Below, one piece after another: positions 10,178 to 58,112 of a DNA stretch of 64,000 nucleotides. A program made the translations under genes and the position numbers. A model generated the notes under the pieces. It ran no database searches, was not told the origin of the DNA, and saw nothing but the letters and a program-made list of their open reading frames with translations. This DNA comes from Bacillota bacterium (GTDB taxonomy: Bacteria > Bacillota > Clostridia > DSM-8532). The first letter of the stretch is position 1, and the number at the start of each line of letters is the position of its first letter. Location: the NCBI GenBank assembly GCA_022702935.2, contig JAKIML020000105.1:1-64000 (forward strand), given 5' to 3'.

Positions 10178-10211
10178 AAAATGCAAGTTTTTGTTGAGCA
10201 TCTTGCATTTT
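10178..10211. promoter_or_regulatory. 10-bp inverted repeat over the gatC -35 region
   Basis: AAAATGCAAG ... CTTGCATTTT is a perfect 10-bp dyad with a 14-base centre. Its right arm contains the -35 hexamer TTGCAT (10203-10208). It may be a repressor site or a terminator for transcripts arriving from upstream; I cannot decide. Confidence 0.45.
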
Positions 10212-10231
10212 CTTCCATGCCATGTTATAAT
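10203..10231 (+). promoter_or_regulatory. Promoter of gatCAB-aspS
   Basis: TTGCAT, a 17-base spacer, then TATAAT (10226-10231) is a good vegetative promoter. Transcription would begin near 10238, only a few bases before the ANTAR-type hairpin. Confidence 0.8.
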
Positions 10232-10243
10232 GTTTGAAATATT

Positions 10244-10259
10244 ACAGCAAAGGCGCTGT
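10244..10259 (+). promoter_or_regulatory. ANTAR-type hexaloop hairpin in gatC leader
   Basis: ACAGC-[AAAGGC]-GCTGT is a 5-bp perfect stem with a six-base loop having A at position 1 and G at position 4, the signature recognised by ANTAR antiterminators. Its loop and 3' arm are also the 5' arm of the terminator-like stem at 10249-10304, so the two folds exclude one another. Confidence 0.75.
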
Positions 10260-10310
10260 TCGGACCGCATTTCACAATCTGATATGTTGGCTGGATAGCG
10301 CTTTTCTTAT
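10249..10310 (+). terminator. Leader attenuator before gatC
   Basis: AAA(G)GCGCTGTTCGG pairs with CTGGATAGCGCTTT, giving 11 continuous pairs including G-U pairs plus AAA/TTT after one bulged G. It is followed by TTTTCTTAT and lies just before the gatC ribosome binding site. It competes with the hexaloop hairpin at 10244-10259. Confidence 0.62.
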
Positions 10311-10323
10311 TGGGAGGTATCTT

Positions 10324-10614
10324 ATGGCAACCGATGTGGAAACAATTAAGAAAATAGCGCAACTCTCAGCTCTATCCATTAATGAATCCGAACTCGAAGG
10401 CTTTGCCAAGGATTTGGATATGATCATTGGCTATATGGAACAGCTCTCAAAACTGGATACCGGGGACGTTAAGCCCATGGAGCATGTGCTTCCTCTTCAT
10501 AATGTTTTAAGGGAGGATGTTCCTACCCATGTGAATCGCAGGGAGGAACTGATGAATAACGCCCCTGAAACAGCCAACGAATGCTTTATGGTTCCGAGTG
10601 TGGTGGATGCATGA
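10324..10614 (+). CDS. gatC: Asp/Glu-tRNA amidotransferase subunit C
   Basis: GatC is the small scaffold subunit that clasps GatA and GatB in the GatCAB amidotransferase, which converts Asp-tRNA(Asn) and/or Glu-tRNA(Gln) to the amide form. The 96-residue protein shows the normal pattern IAQLSALSINESE ... MIIGYMEQLSKLDT ... LREDVP. Start ATG 10324 follows GGGAGG by 6 bases; the frame is open further upstream but that lies inside the leader RNA. It is the first gene of gatC-gatA-gatB-aspS and its last codons overlap gatA (ATGATGA). Confidence 0.95.
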   Translation: MATDVETIKKIAQLSALSINESELEGFAKDLDMIIGYMEQLSKLDTGDVKPMEHVLPLHNVLREDVPTHVNRREELMNNAPETANECFMVPSVVDA

Positions 10615-12083
10615 TGAAATTACGAGAATTAACCTTAAAAGAAACCCATGATTTATTAAAAGCCGGTGAAATCGGGGTTGTAGAGCTGACCCGCGAGTAT
10701 CTGGATGCCATTCATGAGAATAATCCCTCCATTAATTGCTATGTAACCCTCTGTGAAAATGAAGCCCTTAATCAGGCCGAGGAGGCGCAGAAGAGGCTTT
10801 CCTCGGGTGAGGAGAATTCTGCGCTCTGCGGTATTCCCATGGGCATTAAGGATAATATGTGCACCTATGGTGTGAGAACCACCTGTGCTTCTAAAATGCT
10901 GGAGAATTTTATCCCGCCCTATTCCTCAACCGCAGTGGACCGACTCCTTAAGAAGGGCGCCGTCATGCTGGGCAAGCTCAATATGGATGAGTTCGCCATG
11001 GGAAGCTCCACTGAGAATACCATATTCGGTCCCACCAGAAACCCCTGGAATACCGAGTATGTGGCCGGTGGCTCCAGCGGTGGCTCAGCGGCTGCTGTTG
11101 CAGCAAATCTTGCAGGATTTACGCTGGGCTCGGATACCGGTGGTTCCATAAGACAGCCCGCAGCCTTCTGCGGTGTGGTGGGGCTTAAGCCCACCTATGG
11201 CCTGGTTTCCCGCTATGGTCTGGTGGCCTTTGCTTCGTCATTGGACCAGATCGGGCCTCTGACCAAGGATGTGACCGACTGTGCGCTTGTTATGGACGAG
11301 GTGGTCGCCCATGACCCCATGGATTCCACGTCGGTAGCCTGGGAAAACGGAAGCTTTACCGAGGACCTGGAAAAGGGTGTGAAGGGTCTGTCCCTGGGCC
11401 TTCCCGCTGAGTTCTTTGACTCGGCGCTGGATGACGGGGTGCGCAAGGCCATCCTCAAAACGATAAAACTCCTCGAGGAGCAGGGCGCCTCGGCGCAGGA
11501 AACCGCCCTTCCCGGCATTAAGCATGCAGTACCCGCTTATTACCTTATATCCTCCTCGGAAGCCAGTGCCAACCTGGCCCGCTATGACGGCATTCGGTAC
11601 GGCCATCGCAGCAAAGCGGCCAAGAATATTGATGAGGTCTATCGTTCGTCCAGGGGCGAGGGCTTTGGCCGAGAGGTGAAGCGGCGTATTCTTTTGGGAA
11701 CCTATGCTTTAAGCTCCGGTTACCATGATGAACTTTACAACAAAGCCCTGAAGGTTCGGCGGATTATTGCCAATGAGTTTGCCCGGGCCTTCGAGCAGTT
11801 TGATGTGATCATCGGGCCAGCCTATCCCACCACGGCCTTCAAGCTGGGAGAGAAGCTTGAGGATCCGCTGAAAATGTACCTGAGCGATATTTATACCGCC
11901 GGAGTCAACCTGGCCGGTCTCCCTGGTCTGGTAGTTCCCTGCGGTCTTGATGACAAAAACATGCCTATCGGCATACAGCTTATTGGAAAGCCCTTTTCAG
12001 AAAAGCTGCTTCTCAGAATTGGATATGCCATTGAAAAGGCCGTTGGCTCCTTCAAGGCATTGAAAAACGAAGGGAGGGCTTAA
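10611..12083 (+). CDS. gatA: Asp/Glu-tRNA amidotransferase subunit A
   Basis: GatA is the amidase-signature subunit that hydrolyses glutamine and sends ammonia to GatB. The 490-residue protein has the Ser-cisSer-Lys triad region: Lys in GIPMGIKDNM, the Gly/Ser-rich GGSSGGSAAAVA and GSDTGGSIRQPAAFCG. The start overlaps the gatC stop by 4 bases, which implies coupled translation; a second ATG follows at 10614. It acts in the cytoplasm as part of GatCAB. Confidence 0.96.
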   Translation: MMKLRELTLKETHDLLKAGEIGVVELTREYLDAIHENNPSINCYVTLCENEALNQAEEAQKRLSSGEENSALCGIPMGIKDNMCTYGVRTTCASKMLENFIPPYSSTAVDRLLKKGAVMLGKLNMDEFAMGSSTENTIFGPTRNPWNTEYVAGGSSGGSAAAVAANLAGFTLGSDTGGSIRQPAAFCGVVGLKPTYGLVSRYGLVAFASSLDQIGPLTKDVTDCALVMDEVVAHDPMDSTSVAWENGSFTEDLEKGVKGLSLGLPAEFFDSALDDGVRKAILKTIKLLEEQGASAQETALPGIKHAVPAYYLISSSEASANLARYDGIRYGHRSKAAKNIDEVYRSSRGEGFGREVKRRILLGTYALSSGYHDELYNKALKVRRIIANEFARAFEQFDVIIGPAYPTTAFKLGEKLEDPLKMYLSDIYTAGVNLAGLPGLVVPCGLDDKNMPIGIQLIGKPFSEKLLLRIGYAIEKAVGSFKALKNEGRA

Positions 12084-12086
12084 ACT

Positions 12087-13526
12087 ATGGAATATGATAT
12101 TATCATAGGTCTTGAAATACATTCTGAGTTAAAAACACAATCCAAGGTCTTTTGCGGCTGCAAGAACGAGTTCGGCGGTGACCCCAACACCCAGTGCTGT
12201 CCCGTGTGCCTGGGTATGCCGGGGACCCTGCCCGTGCTCAATAAAACGGCCCTGGAATATGCTATTAAAGCAGGCCTGGCCATGAACTGCAAGATCTCTC
12301 GTTTCAGCAAGCTGGACCGTAAGAACTTCTTCTATCCCGATATGCCCAAGGCCTATCAGATCTCCCAGTATGACCTGCCCATCTGCTATGACGGCTATGT
12401 GGATATTGAGGTCAACGGCGAAACCAAAAGGATAGGCATTGAGCGCATTCATATTGAGGAGGATGCGGGAAAACTGGTGCATGATCCCTATGGTCAGGGG
12501 ACCCTTATCGATTACAACCGATGCGGTGTGCCCCTCATAGAAATTGTAACCCGCCCCGATATCCGCTCTCCGGAAGAAGCCAGAATTTTGTTTGAAACTA
12601 TCAAGTCCATTTTGGAATATACCGAGGTTTCTGACTGCCGTATGCAGGAAGGCTCCATCCGCGCCGACGTAAACCTGTCCATCCGTCCCAAGGGGACCGA
12701 GGCCTTCGGTGTCAGAACCGAGATGAAGAACCTTAACTCCTTCCGCTCCGTTCAGAGAGCAGCCGAGGCCGAAGCCAAACGCCAGGCCGAGGTGCTGAGA
12801 AAGGGCGGCGTGGTGATTCAGGAAACCAGACGCTGGGATGACAACAAGGGCGAAAGCTTTTCAATGCGCGGCAAGGAAGAGGCCATGGATTACCGCTATT
12901 TCCCCGAGCCCGATTTGGTGCCCATTGTGGTGGATGATGAGTGGCTTGAATCCATTAAGCGCAGCATTCCGGAGCTTCCCCAGAGCCGCAGAGACAGATA
13001 TATCAACGAGCTGGGTATTCCCCGGTACGATGCGAACCTGATTACCATGAACAAGCGTGTTGCGGATATGTTTGATGCGGCCGTTGCCGTCTGCGGCAAT
13101 GCCAAGACGGTCAGCAACTGGATTATGACTGATATCATGCGTAGAATTAATGATAAAGGAGAAGCCGTACTGGATTCTCCGCTCAACGGCAAACGTTTCG
13201 GGGAGATTCTCCTGTTCCTCGAGAAGGGTGAAATTACCCAGGCCTCAGCCAAAAAGGTTATGGACGAGGTTATAGAGACAGGTGCCGAGCCATCGGAGAT
13301 TATTGAAAAGCGGGGACTTAAGGTGCAGAGGGATGAAAACCTGGTTCTCGACGCCGTAAGAAAGGTTATTCAGAGCAATCCCCAAGCCTTTAATGATTAT
13401 GTATCCGGTAAGGAAAAGGCCTTTGGCTTCCTGATGGGAAGGGTTATGGGAGAGCTGAAAGGCAAGGGTGATCCTGCCCAGGTTAAGGAGGTTCTGACCA
13501 GGGAACTTCAGGCGGCCTCCTCATAA
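12087..13526 (+). CDS. gatB: Asp/Glu-tRNA amidotransferase subunit B
   Basis: GatB binds the misacylated tRNA, activates the side-chain carboxylate with ATP and accepts ammonia from GatA. The 479-residue protein begins with the family sequence GLEIHSELKTQSKVFCGC, has CCPVCLGMPG (zinc-type cysteines) and a C-terminal YqeY-like tail domain from about residue 400. It lies 3 bases after gatA and is preceded by GGGAGGG. Length is normal. Confidence 0.97.
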   Translation: MEYDIIIGLEIHSELKTQSKVFCGCKNEFGGDPNTQCCPVCLGMPGTLPVLNKTALEYAIKAGLAMNCKISRFSKLDRKNFFYPDMPKAYQISQYDLPICYDGYVDIEVNGETKRIGIERIHIEEDAGKLVHDPYGQGTLIDYNRCGVPLIEIVTRPDIRSPEEARILFETIKSILEYTEVSDCRMQEGSIRADVNLSIRPKGTEAFGVRTEMKNLNSFRSVQRAAEAEAKRQAEVLRKGGVVIQETRRWDDNKGESFSMRGKEEAMDYRYFPEPDLVPIVVDDEWLESIKRSIPELPQSRRDRYINELGIPRYDANLITMNKRVADMFDAAVAVCGNAKTVSNWIMTDIMRRINDKGEAVLDSPLNGKRFGEILLFLEKGEITQASAKKVMDEVIETGAEPSEIIEKRGLKVQRDENLVLDAVRKVIQSNPQAFNDYVSGKEKAFGFLMGRVMGELKGKGDPAQVKEVLTRELQAASS

Positions 13527-13600: not shown

Positions 13601-14932
13601 ATGATGACGATAAAAGGAATGGGCCCCTTGCAGGAAGGGATACGACAATCCGGCTCCGCACCGGATGAAGTGATAGTTGAAGGTTGTATCCATCGTATTC
13701 GGGAAATGGGCAAGGTCATCTTTGTAGTGATCAGAACTTCCCGCAGCTTGATTCAATGTGTGCTTGATGAAGGCGGTTATCAACTGACAGGACTCAGGGA
13801 GGACGGAAGTCTCAATGAGGGCGATTGTGTCAGGGTGACCGGTATCAAAAAGGAAGAGCCCCGTGCTTTTGGCGGATTTGAAGTGCATGGAAGGTCCATT
13901 GAGGTGCTGTCCGTCGCCAATGCCCTTCCGCCTGTCAGCTTGAACAAGCCAAAGCTGAGCTCGGGCCTGGATGTCATCCTTGACCATCGTCCCATAGCGT
14001 TGCGCCATCCCCAGCAAAGGGCCATCTTTAAGCTGCAGGAGGGCATTGTCAAGGCCTTCCGCCATTACTTATCGGCCAATGATTTTACCGAGATTCATTC
14101 ACCCAAAACCACCTCGGCAGGTGCTGAGGGCGGAGCCAACATCTTTAAAATGGACTATTTCGGCCAGCCCGCTTGCCTGGCTCAGAGCCCTCAGATCTAC
14201 AAGCAGATGATGGTGGGGGTTTTTGGCAGAGTCTTTGAAGTAGCACCTGTATTCAGAGCCGAGAAACACAATACCACCCGTCACCTCAATGAATATATCA
14301 GTATGGACTTTGAGATGGGGTATATCAAGGGCATGGAGGACGTGATGGACACGGAAGCCGCCATGCTGAGATATATGATGGATTATCTTAAGGAGAATTA
14401 CAGCCAGGAGCTGAGCCTTCTTAAGGTGGAGCTCCCCGTTGTGGGCGAGATTCCCGTTTTGAAGTTCAAGGAAGCCAAGGAGCTTTTGGCCCGTGAGTAT
14501 GGGCGAAGAGTGACGGGCAACGGAGATCTGGATCCGGAGGAAGAAGTGCTTTTATGCCAATACTCCAAGGAGAAGCTGGGCAGTGAGTTTATCTTCATCA
14601 CCCACTTCCCGTCATCCCGCCGGCCCTTCTATGCCATGGATGATCCCAACGATCCGGGTTTTGCCTTCAGCTTCGATTTACTCTTCCGGGGCCTGGAGAT
14701 CACGACGGGCGGACAACGTATCCACGATTATCAACAACAAGTGACGAAAATGCAAGAGATGGGGTTAGAACCTTCAGATTTTGAACATTACTTGTCCATC
14801 CATAAGCATGGTATGCCCCCTCACGGAGGACTGGGGTTGGGGCTTGAAAGACTGGAAATGCAACTACTTGGGCTGAATAACGTGCGTTATACCAGCCTGT
14901 TCCCCAGAGATGTCAAACGAATCACACCATAA
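13601..14932 (+). CDS. aspS: Archaeal-type (probably non-discriminating) aspartyl-tRNA synthetase
   Basis: This class II synthetase charges tRNA(Asp) and, in this context, probably tRNA(Asn) with aspartate. At 443 residues it lacks the large insertion of the ~590-residue bacterial AspRS. It has an OB-fold anticodon domain (residues 20-110), motif 2 (FRAEKHNTTRHLNEY) and motif 3 (GLGLGLERLEMQLLG) and ends with FPRDVKRITP, the archaeal-type AspRS tail. In the anticodon loop GCIHRIRE a Cys stands where discriminating archaeal enzymes usually have Trp, compatible with relaxed tRNA choice (inference). Placement directly after gatCAB supports the indirect Asn-tRNA pathway. Confidence 0.88.
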   Translation: MMTIKGMGPLQEGIRQSGSAPDEVIVEGCIHRIREMGKVIFVVIRTSRSLIQCVLDEGGYQLTGLREDGSLNEGDCVRVTGIKKEEPRAFGGFEVHGRSIEVLSVANALPPVSLNKPKLSSGLDVILDHRPIALRHPQQRAIFKLQEGIVKAFRHYLSANDFTEIHSPKTTSAGAEGGANIFKMDYFGQPACLAQSPQIYKQMMVGVFGRVFEVAPVFRAEKHNTTRHLNEYISMDFEMGYIKGMEDVMDTEAAMLRYMMDYLKENYSQELSLLKVELPVVGEIPVLKFKEAKELLAREYGRRVTGNGDLDPEEEVLLCQYSKEKLGSEFIFITHFPSSRRPFYAMDDPNDPGFAFSFDLLFRGLEITTGGQRIHDYQQQVTKMQEMGLEPSDFEHYLSIHKHGMPPHGGLGLGLERLEMQLLGLNNVRYTSLFPRDVKRITP

Positions 14933-14989: not shown

Positions 14990-15011
14990 GTGAGTAGATT
15001 AAAAATCAAGC

Positions 15012-15056
15012 TTAGCAAAGGCGCTAGTTGATAAAACTAGTGCCTTTTTGCTTGTT
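15012..15056 (+). promoter_or_regulatory. ANTAR-type hairpin overlapping a strong terminator (P1 leader)
   Basis: The hexaloop stem TTAGC-[AAAGGC]-GCTAG is at 15012-15027 (one G-T pair). The alternative fold pairs AGCAAAGGCGCTAGTT (15014-15029) with AACTAGTGCCTTTTTGCT (15035-15052), a long near-perfect stem with an internal T-run. Both use the same 5' arm. Unless antiterminated, transcripts from P1 would be only about 60 nt long. Confidence 0.75.
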
Positions 15057-15124
15057 GAAATGCCCTAAGAAAATTGCAATGAAGTGTAAGCCATCATGCA
15101 GATTGACAAAAAATGAAATTTCAA

Positions 15125-15154
15125 TTGACGCTTCCTTGCAATTCCTGTTATAAT
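15125..15154 (+). promoter_or_regulatory. glnN downstream promoter P2
   Basis: TTGACG, an 18-base spacer and TATAAT (15149-15154). The predicted start, near 15161, lies at the foot of the first leader hairpin. Confidence 0.78.
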
Positions 15155-15159
15155 TTGTT

Positions 15160-15198
15160 CGTTAAAGAGCAGATTCTTAACGGAAACAAGGGCGTTTC
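15160..15198 (+). promoter_or_regulatory. Tandem hexaloop hairpins in glnN P2 leader
   Basis: The first stem CGTT(A)AAGA-[GCAGAT]-TCTTAACG (15160-15182) has G at loop position 4 but G rather than A at position 1. The second, abutting stem GAAAC-[AAGGGC]-GTTTC (15183-15198) has the full A1/G4 loop. Two neighbouring six-base-loop stems, the second overlapping a terminator, is the described layout of ANTAR target RNA. Confidence 0.7.
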
Positions 15199-15223
15199 AC
15201 CAAGACAGGGGTGCGCCCTTTTT
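15188..15223 (+). terminator. Leader attenuator before glnN
   Basis: AAGGGCG pairs with CGCCCTT, with an inner CACC/GGTG stem, and ends in TTTTT. It shares its 5' arm with the hexaloop hairpin at 15183-15198, so only one can form. Confidence 0.72.
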
Positions 15224-15247
15224 ACAATTCTGAAAGGAGATCAGGTT

Positions 15248-17353
15248 ATGGGAATTTGTTGTGATGAAATTAACTCCGGTATGTTTGGATCGTACGTGTT
15301 TAATGATTCGGTCATGCAGGAAAGGCTTCCAAAGGCCACTTACAAGAAACTGAAGAAGACAATCACAGAGGGTCTGCCTCTGGATCCGGATGTTGCTGAG
15401 GTGGTTGCTTGTGTGATGAAGGATTGGGCCGTTGAAAAAGGCGCCACTCACTATACTCACTGGTTCCAGCCTCTGACGGGAATCACCGCTGAGAAACATG
15501 ATTCCTTCATATCTCCCACAGGTGATGGCCGTGCTATTATGGAATTTTCCAGCAAAGAGCTCATCAAGGGTGAACCTGATGCTTCTTCATTCCCCTCAGG
15601 TGGTTTGCGTGCAACCTTTGAGGCCAGAGGTTATACCGCATGGGATTGTACCTCTCCGGCCTTTGTAAAGGATCGCACCTTGTACATACCGACTGCTTTC
15701 TGCTCTTACACCGGTGAAGCTCTGGACTTAAAAACACCTCTTTTAAGATCCATGGAGGCTCTCTCCAAGCAAGCCATTCGTATTCTGAGACTCTTTGGTG
15801 ATACCACCACCAAAAAGGTGTTCACCACCGTTGGTCCCGAGCAGGAGTACTTTCTGGTTGACAAGGAATACTTCATGAAGAGAAAGGACCTTCTCTATAC
15901 CGGCAGAACCCTGTTTGGCGCTAAGCCTCCCAAGGGTCAGGAAATGGAAGACCATTACTTCGGTAATCTTAAAAATAAAGTATCAGAGTTCATGCATGAG
16001 CTGGATGCAGAGCTTTGGAAGCTGGGCGTTACCGCCAAGACCAAGCATAATGAAGTGGCTCCCGCACAGCATGAGTTGGCTCCCGTATTCTCTACCACCA
16101 ATATTGCTACCGATCATAACCAGTTGACCATGGAGATCATGAAGAAGGTTGCCGACAGACTCGGACTGGCCTGCCTGCTCCACGAGAAGCCTTTCGCAGG
16201 TGTTAACGGTTCCGGTAAGCATAACAACTGGTCCATGTCCACCAATGAGGGCAAGAATCTGCTGGATCCCGGCAAGACCCCTGTGGACAATGCACAGTTC
16301 CTGGTGTTCCTGACAGCCGTCATTAAGGCTGTGGACGAATATGCCGACCTTTTGAGAGTTGGTATTGCCTCCGCCGGCAACGATCACAGACTGGGTGCCA
16401 ATGAGGCTCCTCCGGCCATCATCTCCGTCTTCCTTGGTGAGGAATTGACCGATGTTATTGAGCAAATCGAGACCGGCGTTGCCAAGAACAATGGCAACAG
16501 CAGAACTTTGGAAATTGGTGTTTCCACACTGCCCGTTCTGCCCAAGGATACCACCGACAGAAACAGAACCTCGCCCTTTGCCTTCACCGGCAATAAGTTT
16601 GAGTTCCGCAGCGTGGGTTCCTCTCAGTCCATTGCTACACCCAACTTCATCCTCAACACCATCGTGGCTGAAGCGCTGTCCCAGATTGCTGACAGACTCG
16701 AGTCAGCTTCTGACTTCCAGGCTGAGGTCAATGCAGTGGTTAAGGAAATTATCAAGAAGCATAAGCGTGTTATCTTCAACGGCAATAACTATGCGCCTGA
16801 ATGGGTCGAAGAAGCAGAGAAGAGAGGTCTGCCTAACTTAAAAACTACTGTGGACGCTATTCCTGCTCTCATCGACGAAAAGAATATCAAGGTCTTCGAA
16901 AAGCACGGCGTTCTGTCCCATACCGAGATGCACTCCCGTTATGAGATTAACCTTGAGAACTATGCCAAGACAATCAGAATTGAGGCTCTGACCATGGTAG
17001 AAATGGCAAGCAGACAAATCCTGCCCGCTTCCATGAACTATGTCAGAAAGGTTGCCGATACTGTGGCTTCTCTCAACGCCGCCGGTGCCGATGCTTCCTC
17101 CTACAAGGAAGAGCTGAGCAAGCTGGTTGACCTGACCACAAGCATCAAATTTCAAGTTGATAAATTGAAGCTGGCTGTTGACGCGCTGGATGAAAGCAGC
17201 GAGGACAGCTACAAGATAGCACTGGCCTATAAGGATGAGATTATTCCTCTGATGAACGGACTTCGTGCTGATGCCGACAAGCTGGAGACCTTGGTTGATG
17301 CAAGCCTGTGGCCCATACCTACCTACGGGGATCTGCTTTTCGGTTTAGTATAA
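15248..17353 (+). CDS. glnN: Glutamine synthetase type III
   Basis: This enzyme makes glutamine from glutamate, ammonia and ATP. The 701-residue size and dodecameric GSIII motifs distinguish it from the ~444-residue GSI also in this window; recognisable segments are [11 protein letters not shown], the [10 protein letters not shown] catalytic strand and [18 protein letters not shown] 15248 is chosen because AAAGGAG lies just upstream; the open frame before it is leader RNA. Two promoters and two attenuators precede it, so regulation is probably by ANTAR-dependent antitermination. A strong terminator follows. It appears to be monocistronic. Confidence 0.96.
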
Positions 17354-25863: not shown

Positions 25864-25919
25864 TTGCTTCACCTGCCTGATTGATTCGTTTAATAACGTA
25901 TTTGCCAGTATTTAAGGTA

Positions 25920-25961
25920 CAAAAAAGATAACCTAAGAATTTTTGCGCTTTGGTTCTTAGG
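25920..25961 (-). terminator. Leader terminator-like hairpin before gltB
   Basis: On the minus strand CCTAAGAA ... TTCTTAGG forms an 8-bp perfect stem with a 14-base loop, extended by AAGAT/ATCTT, followed by TTTTTT. It lies about 55 bases before the gltB start, so it probably attenuates the operon. I find no A1/G4 hexaloop stem overlapping it, unlike the other nitrogen leaders. Confidence 0.65.
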
Positions 25962-26050: not shown

Positions 26051-26674
26051 TTATTTATGCTTATACTCTTTGATAATGGCTTCGGCCACTTCCTGCAGGG
26101 GTATACCCGTATCCATGCTCCTTTTTTGGATGGCTCGCCAAGCCTCGGCTTCACTTAAGCCAAGCTTGTTCATCAATACGGTCTTGGCTTTATCGGCGAT
26201 TGCCCTTCGCTGCAGATCCATTTTGAGCTTCTGCGTCTCCCGGGTGATACAGGCGATCCTCTCCTTGTACTGAAGAATGAGATCCAGAGAGGTCAATAAG
26301 GCTGCCGATGTCACAGGTCTGGGAAGACATATGATATCATGGGGACCGGCACTGCTTCTGACATAATTGATCTGTTCGGGCGGTGTTATCATCAACACCG
26401 AGCAGGGGTACTGGGACAGAAGATCAGTGGCAAAGGTCAGGCCCGGCATATCACTAAGCGTAAAGCCCACGATGGCGATATCAATGGTGTTCATTCCTGC
26501 TATTCGTAAAGCCTGCATCCCGGATGTACAGGTGTCAATGATGCTATACCCTCGGGGAATCAGGATATTCTTGATCTGTTCAATGGACTCCTGCTGGCGA
26601 AGCGCTATTAATATGTTGCAGCTCATATCCACAGGATCATCCTCGCTTTCTGGTGTTATGCACCAAGTTTGCAC
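26051..26674 (-). CDS. ANTAR-domain RNA-binding antiterminator (NitR-like)
   Basis: ANTAR proteins bind paired hexaloop hairpins in mRNA leaders and block terminator folding. The C-terminal ~55 residues are an ANTAR domain (KTVLMNKLGLSEAEAWRAI, then IPLQEVAEAIIK). The N-terminal half has the response-regulator receiver fold, but the phosphoacceptor position reads IAIVGFTLSDMPG with Gly instead of Asp, and the conserved Lys is Arg (LPRPVT). It is thus a pseudo-receiver, likely not phosphorylated. A coiled-coil linker joins them. It lies 8 bp after glnA, the arrangement known for NitR of solventogenic clostridia. The true start may be ATG 26626 (MSCNILIAL). Confidence 0.9.
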   Translation of the reverse strand: MQTWCITPESEDDPVDMSCNILIALRQQESIEQIKNILIPRGYSIIDTCTSGMQALRIAGMNTIDIAIVGFTLSDMPGLTFATDLLSQYPCSVLMITPPEQINYVRSSAGPHDIICLPRPVTSAALLTSLDLILQYKERIACITRETQKLKMDLQRRAIADKAKTVLMNKLGLSEAEAWRAIQKRSMDTGIPLQEVAEAIIKEYKHK

Positions 26675-26682
26675 CCTAGGGT

Positions 26683-28017
26683 TTAATACCTGTAAAGATA
26701 TTGATCAATCTCCCAATTGTGCACGCGAGATTTATATTCATCCCATTCCTGGCGTTTTGCCTTGATAAAGTATTGAGCGGCATGATTGCCAAGAGCATTG
26801 AGTATGAGCTGATCCTTTTCAAGTTCGTTCAGAGCTTCGTTGAGGTTCTCGGGCAGTCTTTCTATGAAAAGCTGACGTCTTTCTTCATCGCTCATGGTAT
26901 AAATATTTCTCTCTACGGCGGCGGGAGGCTTCAGGCCTCTCTTGATACCATCCAGACCTGCAGCAAGAATAACGGCAAATGTCAAATAGGGATTACAGGA
27001 TGGATCAGGGTTTCGTAATTCTATACGGGTAGCCTCTCCCTTGACAGCAGGGATGCGTATCAGCGGGCTTCTGTTTTTGGTGGCCCAGCAAATGTATACG
27101 GGAGCCTCATAACCCGATACCAGACGCTTGTAGGAGTTGACAAGGGGATTGGATATGGCGGTGATGGCCTTGATGTGATCCAGAACACCTGCCATGAAGC
27201 TGTAGGCCTCAGCCGAAAGTCCCAGCTTGTCATTGGGATCATAGAAGACGTTTTTACCGTCCCTGGATAAGGACAGATTGGTATGTAGGCCGCTGCCGCT
27301 CATATCGGCAATGGGCTTGGGCATAAAGGTAGCGGCAAGACCATGACGACGGGCGATGGTTTTCACCACAATCTTGAAGGTCATGAGCATATCGGCAGCC
27401 TGAAGGGCTTCGTCATAGCGGAAATCTATTTCATGCTGTCCGTTGGCCACCTCATGGTGGGAGGCCTCAACATCAAAGCCCATTTCCTCCAGAGTGAGGC
27501 AGATATCCCGACGTGCGTCCTCGCCTAAGTCCATAGGGCTTAAATCGAAATAGCCGCCCTGATCATGGGTGAGGGTTGTGGTTCTGCCGTTGGTGTCGGT
27601 ATGGAAAAGGAAGAATTCGCATTCAGGACCCACATTCAATGAATAGCCCATGCTCTGTGCCTCGGCGAGGGCTCTTCTTAAGATATAGCGCGGATCGCCC
27701 TCAAAAGGAGTGCCATCGGGCTTATAGACGTCGCAGATCAACCTGGCCACACGACCGTTTTGCGGACGCCAGGGGAAGATAGAAAAGGAATCGATATCGG
27801 GATAGAGATACATATCGGATTCCTCAATACGCGCAAACCCGTCTATGGAAGATCCATCAAACATATATTTATTCTGAAGTGCTTGCTCTAGATGATCTAC
27901 AGTAATAGCAACATTTTTTGACATGCCAAAAATATCCGTAAATTGCAGCCTTACAAATTTGACATCATTCTCTCTCGCCATACGGATAACTTCTTCTGGA
28001 ACCCATTTCTTACTCAT
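26683..28017 (-). CDS. glnA: Glutamine synthetase type I
   Basis: GlnA makes glutamine from glutamate and ammonia. The 444-residue length and the C-terminus NWEIDQYLYRY mark the shorter GSI-alpha class, which lacks the adenylylation loop, so control is not by adenylylation. Motifs include MFDGSSIDGF, the ATP-site and ammonia-site segment GPECEFFLF, and the glutamate flap near residue 300. The ribosome site GCAAAGGAGC precedes ATG 28017. It is followed after 8 bp by the ANTAR gene and preceded by an ANTAR-type leader, implying feedback through antitermination. Confidence 0.97.
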   Translation of the reverse strand: MSKKWVPEEVIRMARENDVKFVRLQFTDIFGMSKNVAITVDHLEQALQNKYMFDGSSIDGFARIEESDMYLYPDIDSFSIFPWRPQNGRVARLICDVYKPDGTPFEGDPRYILRRALAEAQSMGYSLNVGPECEFFLFHTDTNGRTTTLTHDQGGYFDLSPMDLGEDARRDICLTLEEMGFDVEASHHEVANGQHEIDFRYDEALQAADMLMTFKIVVKTIARRHGLAATFMPKPIADMSGSGLHTNLSLSRDGKNVFYDPNDKLGLSAEAYSFMAGVLDHIKAITAISNPLVNSYKRLVSGYEAPVYICWATKNRSPLIRIPAVKGEATRIELRNPDPSCNPYLTFAVILAAGLDGIKRGLKPPAAVERNIYTMSDEERRQLFIERLPENLNEALNELEKDQLILNALGNHAAQYFIKAKRQEWDEYKSRVHNWEIDQYLYRY

Positions 28018-28044: not shown

Positions 28045-28096
28045 AAAGCGCTCCTAAGGAAGGATACTTCAAGTAAACCCCCTTAAGAACGCCTTT
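28045..28096 (-). terminator. Leader attenuator before glnA
   Basis: On the minus strand AAAG(G)CGTTCTTAAGG pairs with CCTTAGGAGCGCTTT: 4 pairs, a bulged G, then 11 pairs with two G-U. The following tract (AATTATATTT) is only moderately T-rich. It uses the loop and 3' arm of the hexaloop hairpin at 28086-28101, so formation is mutually exclusive. Confidence 0.6.
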
Positions 28097-28101
28097 GTTC
28101 T
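28086..28101 (-). promoter_or_regulatory. ANTAR-type hexaloop hairpin in glnA leader
   Basis: On the minus strand AGAAC-[AAAGGC]-GTTCT is a 5-bp perfect stem whose loop is identical to those in the gatC and glnN P1 leaders (A1, G4). It lies about 45 nt into the predicted transcript. Confidence 0.78.
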
Positions 28102-28149
28102 CACAAATATTTGAAGGATTAAAGCATCAAACTTGCAACTTACGGTCAA

Positions 28150-28309: not shown

Positions 28310-30148
28310 TTACTGGATCTGAACCTTGTATTCGGTAAGCCAGGTCTCCACCTGGATGAGCCATGCAAGAAGCTGCGGGAAGGCCATAAGCTGCCCGAAC
28401 CAGGGACGGCCTAATTCGGCAGGCCGGTCCATAAGCTCCAAAAGAGTCTTTCTGTCAATCAACGGCAGTATACGGGAATTGCTGTCGGACAAGATATCCA
28501 GCATCCGTTCCTTGACAGCCTGGGTATAGGAGGGGTTATGGGTTTTGGGATAGGGGCTCTTTTTGCGCCAGAGAATTTCATGGGGAAGGGTATCCTCCAG
28601 GGCCTTGCGCAGTAAGCCCTTTTCCCTGTTATCATACATTTTGAGGGACCAGGGGATATTCCACACATACTGGACCAGGCGATGGTCGCAGTAGGGTACC
28701 CGCACCTCAAGACCATGGGCCATGCTCATTCTGTCCTTCCGATCCAGGAGGGTGGACATAAACCAGGTGATATTTAAATAGAAGATCTCACGGCGCCTGG
28801 CCTCCAAAGCACTTTCTCCGGGCAGGCGGGGAACCTGTTTTAAGGTCTCCTCATAGCGCTGACGGACATACTCATGGGCATTAATGCGCGCGCTCAGGTC
28901 GGGGGAAAGAACCTTCAGACGCTCATCCAGCAGCCGGGCCCAGGGGAAGGTGGGTGTCTCAAAAAACTCCCTGTGGTGGAACCAGGGATAACCCCCAAAG
29001 ACCTCGTCGGCGCACTCACCGCTTAGGGCCACGGTGGCGAATTTTTTAATCTCCCGGCAGAAGAGATAGAGGGAGGAATCCACGTCAGCCATGCCGGGGA
29101 AGTCCCTGGCCAGAACCGCATCCTTCAAGGCCTCCACCAGCTCCGGAGTATCAAAGGTGAACACATGATGATGGGTGCCGAAGGCTTCCGACATGAGCCT
29201 GACATAGGGCGCATCGGCATTGGGCTGGAAGAGGGAGGATTTAAAATGCTTTTCATTATCCACATAGTCGATGGAGAAGGTGTCCAGGATTCGGCCCTCC
29301 TCCTTGAAGGCTATGGCTGCAACCGCAGAAATAATACTGGAATCTAAGCCCCCGGACAAGAAGGTGCACAGGGGGACATCACTGACCAACTGCCGCTTTA
29401 TAGCGTCCTTGACCCACCAGGATACCTTTTCTATGGTCTCCTCGGGAGAATCCTCGTGGGGTGCGCTGGACAGGGTCCAGTAGCAGCTTTCTTTGATTCC
29501 GTCGCCGGTGAAGATAATACTGTGGGCGGGCTTGACCTCAAAGACTTTTTCATAAATCCCGTGGCCCGGAGTTCTGGCGGGACACAGGGTGAAGATCTCG
29601 GCAAGGCCTTGGGTGCTCACCACGGGTTTGACCATAGGGTGCTTTAACAGGGCCTTCATCTCAGAACCAAAGATGAGGTTTTGACCGTTGAGGCTGTAAA
29701 AAAGAGGCTTGACCCCAAATCTGTCCCGGGCCATGAACAGGCACTGCTCCTTTTCGTCCCATATGGCAAAGGCATAGATGCCGTTCAAATACTCTACGCA
29801 CTGGGGGCCCCATTCTATATAGGAAACAAGGAGCACCTCGGTGTCGGATCGGGTGTGGAAGTGATGGCCCAGGGATAAGAGGGCGGAGCGCAGTTCGTCA
29901 GTATTATAGAGCTCACCGTTATAGGTTATTACATAGGACTTACCGTTCAGCGTCCGTACCATGGGCTGCAGACCTCCCTCGGGGTCCACCACGGCAAGCC
30001 TTCTGTGAACCAGCATGGCATGGGGAGAAAACCATTCCCCGCTTGAATCGGGCCCCCTGTTTCTAAGGGTTTCCGACATATCCTCAAGAATGTTCCTTTC
30101 CAGGGACAGATCCTCGACTAAATTTACCCATCCGGCGATTCCGCACAT
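28310..30148 (-). CDS. asnB: Asparagine synthase (glutamine-hydrolysing)
   Basis: AsnB transfers the amide nitrogen of glutamine to aspartate with ATP. The 612-residue protein begins MCGIAGWV with the catalytic Cys 2 of the class II glutaminase domain and has the PP-loop FLSGGLDSSII in the synthetase half (about residue 265). Length is normal for the AsnB family. GGAGGAG precedes the start. The leader carries a hexaloop hairpin and terminator. With GatCAB-AspRS in the same block, the cell has both a free-asparagine route and a tRNA-dependent route. Confidence 0.95.
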   Translation of the reverse strand: MCGIAGWVNLVEDLSLERNILEDMSETLRNRGPDSSGEWFSPHAMLVHRRLAVVDPEGGLQPMVRTLNGKSYVITYNGELYNTDELRSALLSLGHHFHTRSDTEVLLVSYIEWGPQCVEYLNGIYAFAIWDEKEQCLFMARDRFGVKPLFYSLNGQNLIFGSEMKALLKHPMVKPVVSTQGLAEIFTLCPARTPGHGIYEKVFEVKPAHSIIFTGDGIKESCYWTLSSAPHEDSPEETIEKVSWWVKDAIKRQLVSDVPLCTFLSGGLDSSIISAVAAIAFKEEGRILDTFSIDYVDNEKHFKSSLFQPNADAPYVRLMSEAFGTHHHVFTFDTPELVEALKDAVLARDFPGMADVDSSLYLFCREIKKFATVALSGECADEVFGGYPWFHHREFFETPTFPWARLLDERLKVLSPDLSARINAHEYVRQRYEETLKQVPRLPGESALEARRREIFYLNITWFMSTLLDRKDRMSMAHGLEVRVPYCDHRLVQYVWNIPWSLKMYDNREKGLLRKALEDTLPHEILWRKKSPYPKTHNPSYTQAVKERMLDILSDSNSRILPLIDRKTLLELMDRPAELGRPWFGQLMAFPQLLAWLIQVETWLTEYKVQIQ

Positions 30149-30227: not shown

Positions 30228-30263
30228 AAAAAAGGCGCGGGTAATAAACCGACGCCATTGCCG
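30228..30263 (-). promoter_or_regulatory. ANTAR-type hairpin and attenuator in asnB leader
   Basis: On the minus strand CGGC-[AATGGC]-GTCG (30250-30263) is a 4-bp stem with one G-U and a loop with A1 and G4. It overlaps the terminator GGCGTCGGT-TTATT-ACCCGCGCC-TTTTTT (30228-30256; one mismatch). The same overlap logic is seen in the other nitrogen leaders. I could not identify its promoter with confidence. Confidence 0.65.
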
Positions 30264-53225: not shown

Positions 53226-56200
53226 GTGAAAAGACATCTTATCAGAGTTATCAGCTTGTTTTTAATATTCGCACTTCTCTTCATGCAAACAGAGGTTTCG
53301 TTTGCAGCATCTCAGACCAGTCCGCCAAGAGTCGAGGACATTATTGTCACCAACAATGCGGGTACATCGGATACCGTTGTTGTAACAGGACTTTATGGCA
53401 ATGAGACCGTTAAGGTGTATAACGCGGCAACGGGCGGCAGATTGATGGGATCGGCCACGGCCTCATCCTCCAAATCCGAGGTGACTATTAAAATTGCTCA
53501 GTTGGGAACAACTGCGGGATATATTTATGTGACACTCACCGCAAAGGGTGAAACTGAAAGCATCAGAGTCAAGGTTCCCTATGATGCAGAGATACAGACT
53601 GCACCGCTGTCCCCCGACAGTGTTGTGGTTACCAATAATGCCGGAAAGGCAGATGTGATCACTGTAACCGACCTCTATGGCGGGGAGACCATCAAGGTAT
53701 ATACAGCGAAGACCGGGGGAAAGCTCCTGGCTTCCTATAATGTCCCGGTCAACAAGACCGAGGCCAATATCAGCATAACCCAGTTGGGAACCGGCGCAGG
53801 CAGCGTTTATGTTTCAGTCACAAACAAAGGTGAGCTTGAAAGTGAACGCATCAAGGTGGACTTTATTGCTGAGCCCAAATCCGACCCCATCCAGGAAGGC
53901 GATGTCACTGTATTTAATCATGCCGGTATTCCCGATACCATCCGTGTCAATTACCTTTCCATTGGCGATGTGGTCAAGGTCTATGATGCCCCTAAGGGCG
54001 GGAATGTCATTGGTACAGCCACTGTACCCAATGGGAAGACCGAAGTGACCATTACCATACAGCAGTTGGGCAAATATGCCGGTAGTGTTTATCTTACACT
54101 GACCCAAAAAGGGAAGCTGGAGAGCGACCGCTTAAAGGTGGACTATCCGGCTGAGAATTATTCCACGGCTTTGGTTTCCTCGCAAATTGTCGTTAACAAT
54201 AATTCAGGTATTGCGGATACCATTACGGTGACCAATCTAACGGCCGGGGATGAAATCAGGGTTTACGATGCGGCCAAGGGAGGCAGTATTATTGCTTCGG
54301 GTATCGTTTCTGCGGGTCAGACCCAGATCACCATTACTGTTCCCGAGCTTGGTTCAACAAGCGGAAGTCTGTATTTAACCCGCACCACAAAGGGCAAGTT
54401 TGAAAGTACCCGTACAAAGGCTGACTATTCCAACGAGCCCAGCTCCGATACCATCAGTATCGAAAACGTAGTCATAACCAATAATGCAGGAAAGGCTGAC
54501 ACCATCGTGGTCAGCGGCCTCTCCGCTGGGGATACGGTGAAGGTTTACTCCGAGGCCTCTGGAGGAAGGCTCCTTGGCAATGCTACGGTGTCCTCCAACA
54601 GCAATCAGGTGACCATTACTGTCCAGCAGCTTGGCACCAATGCCGGAAGCGTCTATATATCCCTGACCAGCACCGGTAAGATGGAGGGCAGCAGGGTCAA
54701 GGTGGATTATGCTGCTGAAACTGTAACCGATGCGCTTAAGCCTGAAAATATTACAGTCATCAACAACCCTGCAGGCAAGGCCGATATCGTTCAGGTGACC
54801 CATCTGACAGCCGGAGACGTAGTCCGGGTTTACAGCGCCATGAGCGGCGGTGTGCTTCTCGGTCAAGGCACCGTGGGCAACAATGCCACAGAGGTAACCA
54901 TCTCCATTAATCAGTTGGGGACCGACGCAGGCAGCGTTTACGTCACGGTTGCCAGCGTTAACAAGAATGAGAGCGGCAGGGTTAAGGTGGATTATGCCGC
55001 AGAAAGCAAATCCCAGGGTATTTCACAGGATAATATCATTGTGACCAATAATGTGACGGGTACCGCCGATACCATACTCGTGACCGGAGTATCGGGCGGG
55101 GATGTGATTAAGGTTTATGATGCGGCAGTGGGAGGAAAGGTTCTTGGAACTGCAACCGTACCGGCCGACGCATCCTATGTCACCCTGACCATACAGCAGT
55201 TGGGTGTCAACGCAGGCAGTGTTTATGTAAGTGTTACCTCACCCAACAAGCTTGAGAGCGATCGTATCAAGGTGGATTATCTGGCTGAAGATGTAACCCC
55301 TGCTATAACCAGTGATGATGTTGTCATCCAGAATAATGCCGGTGCGCCTGATACCATAGAGGTGACGGGCCTCAGAGAGGGCGATGTGGTCAAGGTTTAT
55401 GATGCCCTGTATGGCGGCAAGGTTCTGGGAACCGCTACAGTGGGCAGCTATAGCAACTATGTCACCGTTTCCATATCCCAGTTGGGTACCTCGGCAGGCA
55501 GCGTCTATATTACCGTGACCAGTGCAGGTAAACTGGAAAGTCAGCGGGTTAAGGTGGACTATCCGGGCGAGGACAAGTCTGAAGCCATTCAACCCGAGAA
55601 CATTGTCATCACCAATAATGCGGGAGCCTCCGATACCGTGCAGGTTACTGGCTTGGCCCTTAAGGATCAAATCAGGGTTTATTCTGCCGAAAAAGGTGGA
55701 AGCCTCTTAGGCTCCGCCACAGTGACTGAGGGCAATACGGCCACCGTAAACATCCCTCAGTTGGGAAGTGAAGCGGGCAGCGTTTATGTTACCATTACCA
55801 ATGCCAACCGTCTGGAGAGCGCCAGAATTAAAGTAGATTATGCGGCAGAAGAGAAGTCCGAGCCCATAAAGGCTGAAAATGCCAGTGTTTCAAACAATGT
55901 GGGCACCTCCGATATCGTGAGAGTAACAGGCCTGTCAGGCGGAGATACCATCAAGGTCTATAGTGCCGCTATTGCCGGAAATGTTTTAGGTTCGGCTTCG
56001 GTATCTACCTATGAAACCTCGGTGGAGATTTCCATAACCCAGCTTGGCAGCAGCGCTGGCAGCGTATATATTACACGAACCAGCAAGAACAAACTGGAAA
56101 GTACACGGACTAAAGTGGATTACCTGGCCGAAGCCCAGTCATCTCCGCTTAAGGAGAGTCAGATAACGGTCATCAATAATGCAGGCATGTCGGATACCAT

Positions 56201-58112
56201 CCGCGTCACCGGGCTCCAGGGCGGAGATGTTGTCAAGGTTTATAACGCTGCTAAGGCAGGAACGCTTCTGGGCAGTGAAACCGTGACCACTTATGGTTCA
56301 TCGGTTACCATCTCAGTAACTCAGCTTGGCGCCGAGGCGGGAAGCGTTTATGTGTCCCTCACCAATCCTTCAAAGCTTGAGAGCCAGAGGACCGAGGTGA
56401 CTTATGCCGCTGAACCCAAGTCAGAAGCTCCGGCAGCCAAGGACATCATTGTGGACAACAATGCCGGTATTGCCGACACAGTCAAGGTTTCAGGGCTCTC
56501 CGGCGAAGAGACCATCAATGTATATGATGCGCCCAAGGGCGGAAAACTGCTTGGTACGGCCATTGCCCCTGTGTTCAGCGACACGGCTACGGTGACCATC
56601 ACCCAGTTGGGAACTGGTGCAGGCAAGGTTTATGTATCACTGACAAAGAAGGGCTATCAGGAAAGCGACAGAACCGAAGTGGCCTACCTGTCCGAAGCCA
56701 AGTCAGACGAGATGGACAGCCGAAACATTATCATTACCAATAACGCCGGTGCCCCTGACACTATCCAGATCAACTGCCTGTCAGGCGGCGACGTGGTCAA
56801 TGTCTATAATGCGCCCACAGGCGGAACCCTGCTGGGAACCGGTACCGTTGGTACCTATAACAATTATGTCACCATAAGCGTTCCTCAGTTGGGAAGCTCG
56901 GGAGGTACGGTTTACATTGCCGTGAAAAGTGTGGGCAAGCTGGAAGGCAGCCGCACAGCCGTAACCTTTGACGCTGAGCAGAAGACAAGCCAGCCCCTTG
57001 CTGAGAATATTATTATCACCAATAATGCAGGAATTCCTGACACCATCAGAGTGACCTTCCTTGAAATGAACGATGTGGTGAAGGTTTACAGTGCAGCCAC
57101 CAACGGCACGTTGCTGGCCTCCGCAACCGAGACTGACGGCAGCGGTGAGGTAACGCTCAGGGTCAATCAGTTGGGTTCGTCGGCTGGCAAGGTTTATGTC
57201 ACCGTTACCCATGTCAATATGCTGGAGAGTGACAGAACCATGGTAGAGTACCAGGCAGAGGCGACCTCCGCCAGCCTGAGCGCTGCCAATATCAGTGTGA
57301 CCAATAATGCCAACATGCCGGATATTATTAAGGTGTCCTTCCGGGAGCCCAATGATCTTATCAAGGTATACAGTACAGCTTCAGGAAGCACGCCCATAGG
57401 CTCTGCAACGGTGGCCGAAAACAGTACTGAAGCCATTATCACCATTGATCAGCTCGGGTCATCTGCCGGAAGCGTCTATGTTTCCGTCACCAGCTATGGC
57501 AAGAAGGAAAGCGCAAGAACCCGCGTGGATTATATGGCTGAACAAGCCAGTGATGCACCGGCATCCAGCAATATCATCATAAAGAATAACGCCAATATGG
57601 CCGACACCATCACCGTAACCTTCCTGGAAGAAAACGATGTGGTCAATGTCTATGATTCGGCTGCAGGCGGCAGACTGCTGGGAACGGGCACTGTGGCTGT
57701 GGGAGGCAGTGAAGTAACCATCAAGATCTCCCAGCTTGGCACAGGCGCCGGCAAGGTTTATGTCTCGGTGACCTCCTCCGGTAAGCTGGAGAGCAGCCGT
57801 ACCATGGCCGACTATGCCGCTGAGGCCACATCCGATCCGCCCGAGGCCAGCTATGTGATCATTGTCAACAATTCTGGCAAGTCCGATACCATTACCGTAG
57901 CCGGATTGATGGAAGGGGATTTGGTGAAGGTTTACAATCAGGCAACCGGCGGAAGCCTGCTGGGCTCCGGCACCGTTCCCGCCCAAGGCTCGGAAGTGAC
58001 CATCAAGGTGACCCAGTTGGGTGTGTCGGCTGGTTATGTCTACATTTCGGTCACCAGCACCGGCGCTTATGAGAGCAGCCGCACAAAGGTGGCCTATGCC
58101 GCAGAACCATAA
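53226..58112 (+). CDS. Secreted giant protein of 17 tandem ~94-residue repeats
   Basis: The 1628-residue product has a signal peptide (LIRVISLFLIFALLFMQTEVSFA) and then only repeats. Each repeat follows the plan NNAGxxDTIxVxxLxxGDxVKVY, a GGxLLGxAxV turn, an ITQLGxxAGSVYV strand and ends LESxRxKVDYxAE. I count 17 units at ~282 bp spacing with no other domain: no S-layer homology, LPXTG, cysteine or catalytic motif. Each unit looks like a beta-sandwich module. Units are diverged at DNA level but aligned in frame, with a one-residue insertion in units 6 and 7, implying age and selection. Start is GTG 53226 after AGAAGGGGGAAG. Role unknown; surface, matrix or adhesive use is a guess. Confidence 0.85.
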   Translation: MKRHLIRVISLFLIFALLFMQTEVSFAASQTSPPRVEDIIVTNNAGTSDTVVVTGLYGNETVKVYNAATGGRLMGSATASSSKSEVTIKIAQLGTTAGYIYVTLTAKGETESIRVKVPYDAEIQTAPLSPDSVVVTNNAGKADVITVTDLYGGETIKVYTAKTGGKLLASYNVPVNKTEANISITQLGTGAGSVYVSVTNKGELESERIKVDFIAEPKSDPIQEGDVTVFNHAGIPDTIRVNYLSIGDVVKVYDAPKGGNVIGTATVPNGKTEVTITIQQLGKYAGSVYLTLTQKGKLESDRLKVDYPAENYSTALVSSQIVVNNNSGIADTITVTNLTAGDEIRVYDAAKGGSIIASGIVSAGQTQITITVPELGSTSGSLYLTRTTKGKFESTRTKADYSNEPSSDTISIENVVITNNAGKADTIVVSGLSAGDTVKVYSEASGGRLLGNATVSSNSNQVTITVQQLGTNAGSVYISLTSTGKMEGSRVKVDYAAETVTDALKPENITVINNPAGKADIVQVTHLTAGDVVRVYSAMSGGVLLGQGTVGNNATEVTISINQLGTDAGSVYVTVASVNKNESGRVKVDYAAESKSQGISQDNIIVTNNVTGTADTILVTGVSGGDVIKVYDAAVGGKVLGTATVPADASYVTLTIQQLGVNAGSVYVSVTSPNKLESDRIKVDYLAEDVTPAITSDDVVIQNNAGAPDTIEVTGLREGDVVKVYDALYGGKVLGTATVGSYSNYVTVSISQLGTSAGSVYITVTSAGKLESQRVKVDYPGEDKSEAIQPENIVITNNAGASDTVQVTGLALKDQIRVYSAEKGGSLLGSATVTEGNTATVNIPQLGSEAGSVYVTITNANRLESARIKVDYAAEEKSEPIKAENASVSNNVGTSDIVRVTGLSGGDTIKVYSAAIAGNVLGSASVSTYETSVEISITQLGSSAGSVYITRTSKNKLESTRTKVDYLAEAQSSPLKESQITVINNAGMSDTIRVTGLQGGDVVKVYNAAKAGTLLGSETVTTYGSSVTISVTQLGAEAGSVYVSLTNPSKLESQRTEVTYAAEPKSEAPAAKDIIVDNNAGIADTVKVSGLSGEETINVYDAPKGGKLLGTAIAPVFSDTATVTITQLGTGAGKVYVSLTKKGYQESDRTEVAYLSEAKSDEMDSRNIIITNNAGAPDTIQINCLSGGDVVNVYNAPTGGTLLGTGTVGTYNNYVTISVPQLGSSGGTVYIAVKSVGKLEGSRTAVTFDAEQKTSQPLAENIIITNNAGIPDTIRVTFLEMNDVVKVYSAATNGTLLASATETDGSGEVTLRVNQLGSSAGKVYVTVTHVNMLESDRTMVEYQAEATSASLSAANISVTNNANMPDIIKVSFREPNDLIKVYSTASGSTPIGSATVAENSTEAIITIDQLGSSAGSVYVSVTSYGKKESARTRVDYMAEQASDAPASSNIIIKNNANMADTITVTFLEENDVVNVYDSAAGGRLLGTGTVAVGGSEVTIKISQLGTGAGKVYVSVTSSGKLESSRTMADYAAEATSDPPEASYVIIVNNSGKSDTITVAGLMEGDLVKVYNQATGGSLLGSGTVPAQGSEVTIKVTQLGVSAGYVYISVTSTGAYESSRTKVAYAAEP
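53331..58110 (+). repeat. 17-copy coding tandem repeat, ~282 bp period
   Basis: The repeat region begins at about 53331 with the first NNAG unit, and the last unit ends with the protein. Neighbouring units differ widely in DNA but keep the same phase. The last unit is complete, and the stop follows at once. Confidence 0.88.

Follow-up and report, generated by a model that had tools for sequence, protein, structure and literature searches.

Organization of the locus

A tRNA amidation operon (gatC, gatA, gatB and aspS) lies behind a promoter-like pair, a small hairpin and an intrinsic terminator in the 64-kb stretch of DNA that was analysed as a whole (the window); coordinates are listed in Table 1. 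AspS scored above the NCBIfam cutoff for the nondiscriminating type, and the products of the four genes are therefore expected to form Asn-tRNA(Asn), the amide being donated by glutamine, as had been proposed for Asn-tRNA in a first reading made without database searches (the sequence-only reading). Its further suggestion that Gln-tRNA might be made as well is probable at most: as GatB is encoded once in the genome, amidation of Glu-tRNA(Gln) is likely to depend on it too, while the AsnRS and GlnRS content of the genome was not tested.

The only ANTAR gene of the genome is located inside the window, between glnA and gltB, and encodes a NitR-like regulator. Its receiver domain is weak (31.8 bits) and the usual phospho-acceptor Asp is replaced (G in the window protein, N in genome G056; read from the sequence), so direct phosphorylation is doubtful, an inference from sequence alone. 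Elsewhere in the window, adjacent ORFs resembling an IS21-type transposase and its ATPase helper were seen by eye (614–2644), and a 1628-aa secreted-looking protein with many repeats of ~80 aa is encoded at 53226–58112.

Table 1. Position, strand and supporting evidence of the features in the window.
Feature	Position	Strand	Evidence or description
Promoter-like pair of gatC	10203–10208 (-35), 10226–10231 (-10)	+	TTGCAT, 17-nt spacer, TATAAT; read from sequence
gatC antiterminator-type hairpin	10244–10259	+	ACAGC[AAAGGC]GCTGT; AxxGxx hexaloop, C:G closing pair, single ANTAR-type hairpin
gatC intrinsic terminator	10249–10311	+	5' arm from 10249, 3' arm ~10284–10305, T-rich tract 10302–10311
gatC	10324–10614	+	TIGR00135 above cutoff
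gatA	10614–12083	+	TIGR00132 above cutoff
gatB	12087–13526	+	TIGR00133; sole GatB match in genome
aspS, nondiscriminating aspartate--tRNA(Asn) ligase	13604–14932	+	TIGR00458 and NF003483 above cutoff
glnN leader 1	15012–15049	+	TTAGC[AAAGGC]GCTAG and overlapping terminator
glnN leader 2	15183–15222	+	GAAAC[AAGGGC]GTTTC and terminator
glnN, type III glutamine synthetase	15239–17353	+	PF12437
NitR-like ANTAR regulator, degenerate receiver domain	26051–26641	-	PF03861 60.4 bits, PF00072 31.8 bits
glnA, type I glutamine synthetase	26683–28017	-	TIGR00653
glnA leader	28045–28103 (approximate)	-	TGAGAAC[AAAGGC]GTTCTTA and terminator (-28.7 kcal/mol)
asnB, glutamine-hydrolysing asparagine synthase	28310–30148	-	TIGR01536
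asnB leader	30228–30263 (approximate)	-	CGGC[AATGGC]GTCG and terminator

Structure of the gatC leader

Transcription of the operon is predicted to start at ~10238. The distance from TATAAT to the hairpin is 12 nt, and the position of the -10 box relative to the hairpin is the same in the gatC leaders of the genus and also class-wide. The promoter was missed by a simple promoter scanner, since its -35 box matches at 3/6 positions only. The hairpin consists of a 5' arm ACAGC (10244–10248), the loop AAAGGC (10249–10254), which meets the A1 and G4 hexaloop criterion, and a 3' arm GCTGT (10255–10259). The terminator stem has 15 contiguous pairs (including G-U) from 10249–10263 and extends to ~20; it is followed by the T-rich tract TTTTCTTATT, a ribosome site and gatC. 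Loop and 3' stem of the small hairpin are at the same time the start of the terminator 5' arm, and the two structures are mutually exclusive. The leader folds with -30.9 kcal/mol (z = -4.05), and none of 200 shuffled sequences folded as well. In a joint scan for an AxxGxx hairpin overlapping the arm of a strong terminator (terminator score at least 30), 2 matches were obtained in the 64-kb window, the gatC leader and the first glnN leader, against 0.017 per simulated 64-kb window.

The sequence-only reading had placed the hairpin just after the predicted start of transcription (10203–10310 as a whole) and had described it as exclusive with a terminator directly before gatC; both statements held. 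The 11-bp terminator stem given there was too short.

For the element, no known family was found in Rfam at gathering or relaxed thresholds. Neither the window nor 60 other gatC-leader sequences had an Rfam match at gathering scores to T-box or other riboswitch families. Leader-peptide attenuation was considered and rejected, as by eye no Asn-, Gln- or Asp-rich peptide was present in the gatC leader.

Leaders of neighbouring nitrogen genes

Five leaders in the window, those of gatC, glnN (two), glnA and asnB, combine such a hairpin with a terminator, and all belong to glutamine/asparagine genes. The glnN hairpins (leader 2 P2) are conserved in G002, G008, G010 and G013, the glnA hairpin is conserved in G013, and the asnB hairpin is found in eight genomes of the genus, in which the stems change and the AAnGGC loop stays. 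Upstream of glnN, two promoter-plus-attenuator units are arranged in tandem (14990–15230). Just upstream of the AAGGGC hairpin of glnN leader 2 an imperfect P1 hairpin (loop GCAGAT) is possible, and one- and two-hairpin forms may therefore coexist within this genome.

In the gltB leader (25915–25955, minus strand), a terminator-like hairpin (CCTAAGAA...TTCTTAGG) precedes a T tract, and a hairpin with an AxxGxx hexaloop is absent. Three glnN leaders of other genomes (L061 in G002, L064 in G001 and L074 in G011) likewise carry a terminator, GGCGTTTT...AAACGCC, near the ribosome site and no hexaloop hairpin; an ANTAR gene was detected in only one of these three genomes. Because such leaders have the terminator without the hexaloop, another control may possibly act on these same glnN-type terminators. 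In three further leaders (L091 in G011, L092 in G019 and L093 in G016), the entire hairpin recurs as its reverse complement (CAGCGCCTTTGCTG) in the terminator 3' arm; the resulting inverted repeat is nearly perfect and may contain a second small hairpin.

Conservation of gatC leaders within the genus

The gatC hairpin was intact in 5/7 alignable leaders of the genus (G000, which is this genome, G006, G008, G010 and G013). G005 has a form weakened by G-U pairing, ACGGT[ATTGGC]GCTGT, and in G009, a genome with two ANTAR genes, the upstream hairpin arm is lost and the terminator kept. No such gatC leader was found in other genus members (e.g. G001, G007, G011, G012). In the genus alignment the terminator 5' arm (columns 16–25) is invariant throughout and 7/10 partner columns vary by G-U-type changes; this is what would be expected if the arm served the antiterminator hairpin as well. 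Counting of pairs in the same alignment revealed no double changes, i.e. conservation only. An exact search with the 21-mer returned four matches in the genus and one chance match within Bacteroidetes coding sequence; viral contigs yielded no match. In the G010 gatC leader (L005), the segment separating terminator and gatC contains a short direct repeat (ttcggtaacgggtg) as well as a run of N.

Occurrence in other families and association with ANTAR genes

Beyond the genus, two genomes of family f26 (G056 and G089) have the exact core before gatC. A survey of gatC leaders in 80 genomes, mostly ANTAR-bearing, added G225 and G264 of f26 (loop AAAGGT) and, in family f11, G041, G078, G177 and G219 (loops AATGGG, AAAGAC, AAGGAC and AAGGGC). 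Both loops and stems are changed in the f26 and f11 elements and AxxG is kept; outside the genus, elements were selected in part by the A1/G4 loop. As a control, the 80 leaders were scanned for other letter pairs in the loop, which gave 0 to 4 strong loci, compared with 7 for AxxG loops. Within g32, the genus of the f26 cases, four ANTAR-bearing genomes have the element, and G163, which is ANTAR-less, is without it. The gene order is gatC-gatA-gatB-aspS-[element]-glnN-asnB in G056, with glnA and an ANTAR gene nearby, and gatC-gatA-gatB-aspS in G177 and G078; aspS was absent from the stretch read in G225. A CM search beyond the genus recovered no further gatC leaders; it did return this hairpin in front of asnA, amtB and glnN, together with some unrelated hairpins.

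The core 14-mer (CAGCAAAGGCGCTG) occurred 42 times in 245 class genomes and its reversed control 3 times. It was classed as lying in a promoter-proximal leader in 29 genomes from 16 families, mostly before glnN and otherwise before asnA, amtB or gatC. An ANTAR gene was present in 28/29 of these genomes versus 95/216 others (Fisher p = 2.2e-8; relatedness was not removed). Six genomes carried the 14-mer only inside coding sequence, and 2/6 had an ANTAR gene. By our own reading, an ANTAR gene lies at most 9 kb from the element in about half of the element-carrying genomes. Elements without a detected ANTAR gene were seen in G002 (glnN, asnB), G005 (gatC, weakened), G010 (81% complete) and G070.

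Loop consensus and covariation

In addition to AAAGGC and to the f26 and f11 variants given above, AATGGC and ATTGGC occur as gatC-leader loops. The loop-closing pair, which was not selected on, is C:G in 22/23 hairpins and U:G in one; the SELEX consensus of NasR is likewise an AxxG loop with a C:G loop-closing pair (PMC7496416). Across the 23 hairpins (gatC, glnN, asnB and glnA), 97.4% of cells pair, and 36 double-changed cells were counted versus a shuffle mean of 9.1. This covariation is taken as support and not as proof, because the set partly combines different genes, and a scan for hairpins contributed to its selection.

One hairpin rather than two

The -10 box ends 6–14 nt before the core in 34/38 cases with a recognisable promoter (most often 11–12 nt), many of which have perfect TTGACA and TATAAT boxes; a few coding or duplicate matches are included in the 38. 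With the -10 box so near, transcription should start within a few nt of the hairpin. The gatC promoter leaves ~6 transcribed nt before it, and it is inferred from the -10 spacing, the starts being predicted, that a classic upstream P1 hairpin cannot fit. The absence of room for an upstream partner hairpin, claimed in the sequence-only reading, thus held on the same predicted start. A scan for dual AxxGxx hairpins at gatC found no P1 in any genus member. The criterion of two hairpins, P1 and P2, joined by a short linker is consequently unmet at gatC; those of a terminator overlapping P2 and of an ANTAR gene in the genome are both met. The gatC element is thus likely to work like an ANTAR target in a one-hairpin variant, outside the dual-hairpin family as defined, with binding and antitermination inferred.

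Published definitions of ANTAR targets and searches for them demanded two hairpins, so the one-hairpin form could not be seen by them. For EutV, deletion of P1 abolishes induction (PMC3369931). NasR binds a single P2 hairpin weakly (~12 µM), and low-affinity binding to one hairpin is within the model of that group (PMC7496416).

Discussion

The gatC leader is best explained as an ANTAR-controlled transcription attenuator of the one-hairpin type, and we regard this as likely. The mutually exclusive structures, their conservation, an element common to the cluster and the co-occurrence with ANTAR genes are shown here; binding, direction and signal are inferred. The claim of the sequence-only reading that gatCAB-aspS is under ANTAR control is supported by the sole ANTAR gene lying in the window, by the sister hairpins, by the 28/29 versus 95/216 count, and by relatives that keep the hairpin and f26 and f11 genomes that have it before gatC, in the absence of binding, transcript or expression data. 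Loss of the hexaloop in relatives, named there as refuting, mostly did not occur (five of seven keep it, one is weak and one has lost it). Stem covariation in related gatC leaders, proposed as a check, was not seen in the genus set. Control by nitrogen remains inferred; the genes that carry the element are nitrogen genes.

As in the P1-P2 attenuators of EutV/eut, NasR/nasF and AmiR/amiE, an AxxGxx hexaloop has a C:G closing pair, a P2-like hairpin is exclusive with an intrinsic terminator, the genes concern nitrogen and an ANTAR gene is present. Unlike in those systems, one hairpin lies at the RNA 5' end without P1, and the receiver of the regulator is without the usual phospho-acceptor Asp. 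The ANTAR protein NitR of Clostridium saccharobutylicum is described as acting by antitermination to induce GS/GOGAT genes when nitrogen is limiting (review PMC6316151). The gene order in that organism, glnA-nitR-glt, matches the order here; gatCAB-aspS and asnB would be additional targets in the present genome. A description of the NitR RNA target structure was not found in the open-access literature searched.

In the proposed mechanism, the nascent RNA would by default fold into the terminator (10249–10305), and transcription would stop before gatC. The NitR-like protein, presumably active under nitrogen/glutamine shortage as for NitR elsewhere, would then bind the 5'-terminal hairpin at its AAAGGC loop and the C:G pair that closes it. 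Binding would block the terminator because the hairpin loop and 3' half are the base of the terminator 5' arm. GatCAB and the nondiscriminating AspRS would be made together with the products of glnN, glnA and asnB. Such control might serve to compensate, through more GatCAB, for slower amidation of Asp-tRNA(Asn) at low glutamine. Direction and signal are assigned by analogy with NitR. Against this explanation stand the requirement of EutV for P1, the weak binding of NasR to one hairpin, the element-carrying genomes without an ANTAR gene and the loss in G009.

A classical two-hairpin target, with transcription starting further upstream and P1 inside the apparent promoter, would agree with all characterised ANTAR targets, which have P1 and P2, and with the possible P1 of glnN leader 2; it is unlikely, however, as -10 boxes mostly lie 7–14 nt before the hairpin and no dual AxxGxx pair exists at gatC in the genus. 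Recognition by another RNA-binding factor or directly by a metabolite, with ANTAR genes merely co-occurring in nitrogen-rich gene sets, would account for the four genomes with elements and no detected ANTAR gene and for the glnN leaders of G001, G002 and G011 with terminator and no hexaloop. This too is considered unlikely: A1 and G4 of the loop together with its C:G closing pair correspond to the ANTAR signature as published (PMC7496416), co-occurrence and linkage with ANTAR genes are strong, G163 provides a natural experiment, and the Rfam search for riboswitches and T-boxes was negative in the sequences covered.

A DNA operator, i.e. an inverted repeat CAGC-N6-GCTG that lies directly behind the promoter and is read by a transcription factor, is suggested by a palindrome that overlaps the start region at near-constant spacing. 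It is very unlikely, since recognition of DNA would require the letters to be conserved, whereas the stems vary by gene (ACAGC, GAAAC, AGAAC, TGAAC) with pairing kept and a terminator that always shares the arm. That the structure is an ordinary constitutive terminator of the upstream region with a chance hairpin can be all but excluded. Stems of the type AAAGGC...GCCTTTT are common in terminators, but this one lies between the operon's own promoter and gatC, is conserved and has five instances in one nitrogen cluster.

Control of gatCAB by an ANTAR protein, of which the sequence-only reading was not aware, was not reported in the open-access literature searched, with most subscription papers outside the search. 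T-box control of tRNA-dependent amidation has been described in C. acetobutylicum (Saad et al. 2012, 2013, cited in PMC4206432). The one-hairpin attenuator proposed here resembles it as an RNA-leader control of the Asn-tRNA amidation pathway in a clostridium and differs in that the signal there is uncharged tRNA, while the gatC leaders tested here have no T-box.

A bolder reading, towards which the balance tips only slightly, is that one-hairpin ANTAR attenuators at extreme mRNA 5' ends are widespread in Clostridia and control glutamine/asparagine genes including gatCAB-aspS, that they are invisible to two-hairpin searches, and that they are read by NitR-like proteins with degenerate receivers, which would need good binding to a single hairpin. 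If true, this would challenge the rule that two hairpins are required by ANTAR proteins, and it raises the testable question of how a single hairpin can capture a protein, given that related proteins act on two hairpins as dimers. The one-hairpin consensus CAGC-AAAGGC-GCTG near a start site offers a simple search for a regulon that dual-hairpin models miss. A protein-read switch would be used where C. acetobutylicum uses a tRNA-read one, and in several families of clostridia Asn-tRNA synthesis would be coupled directly to the nitrogen status.
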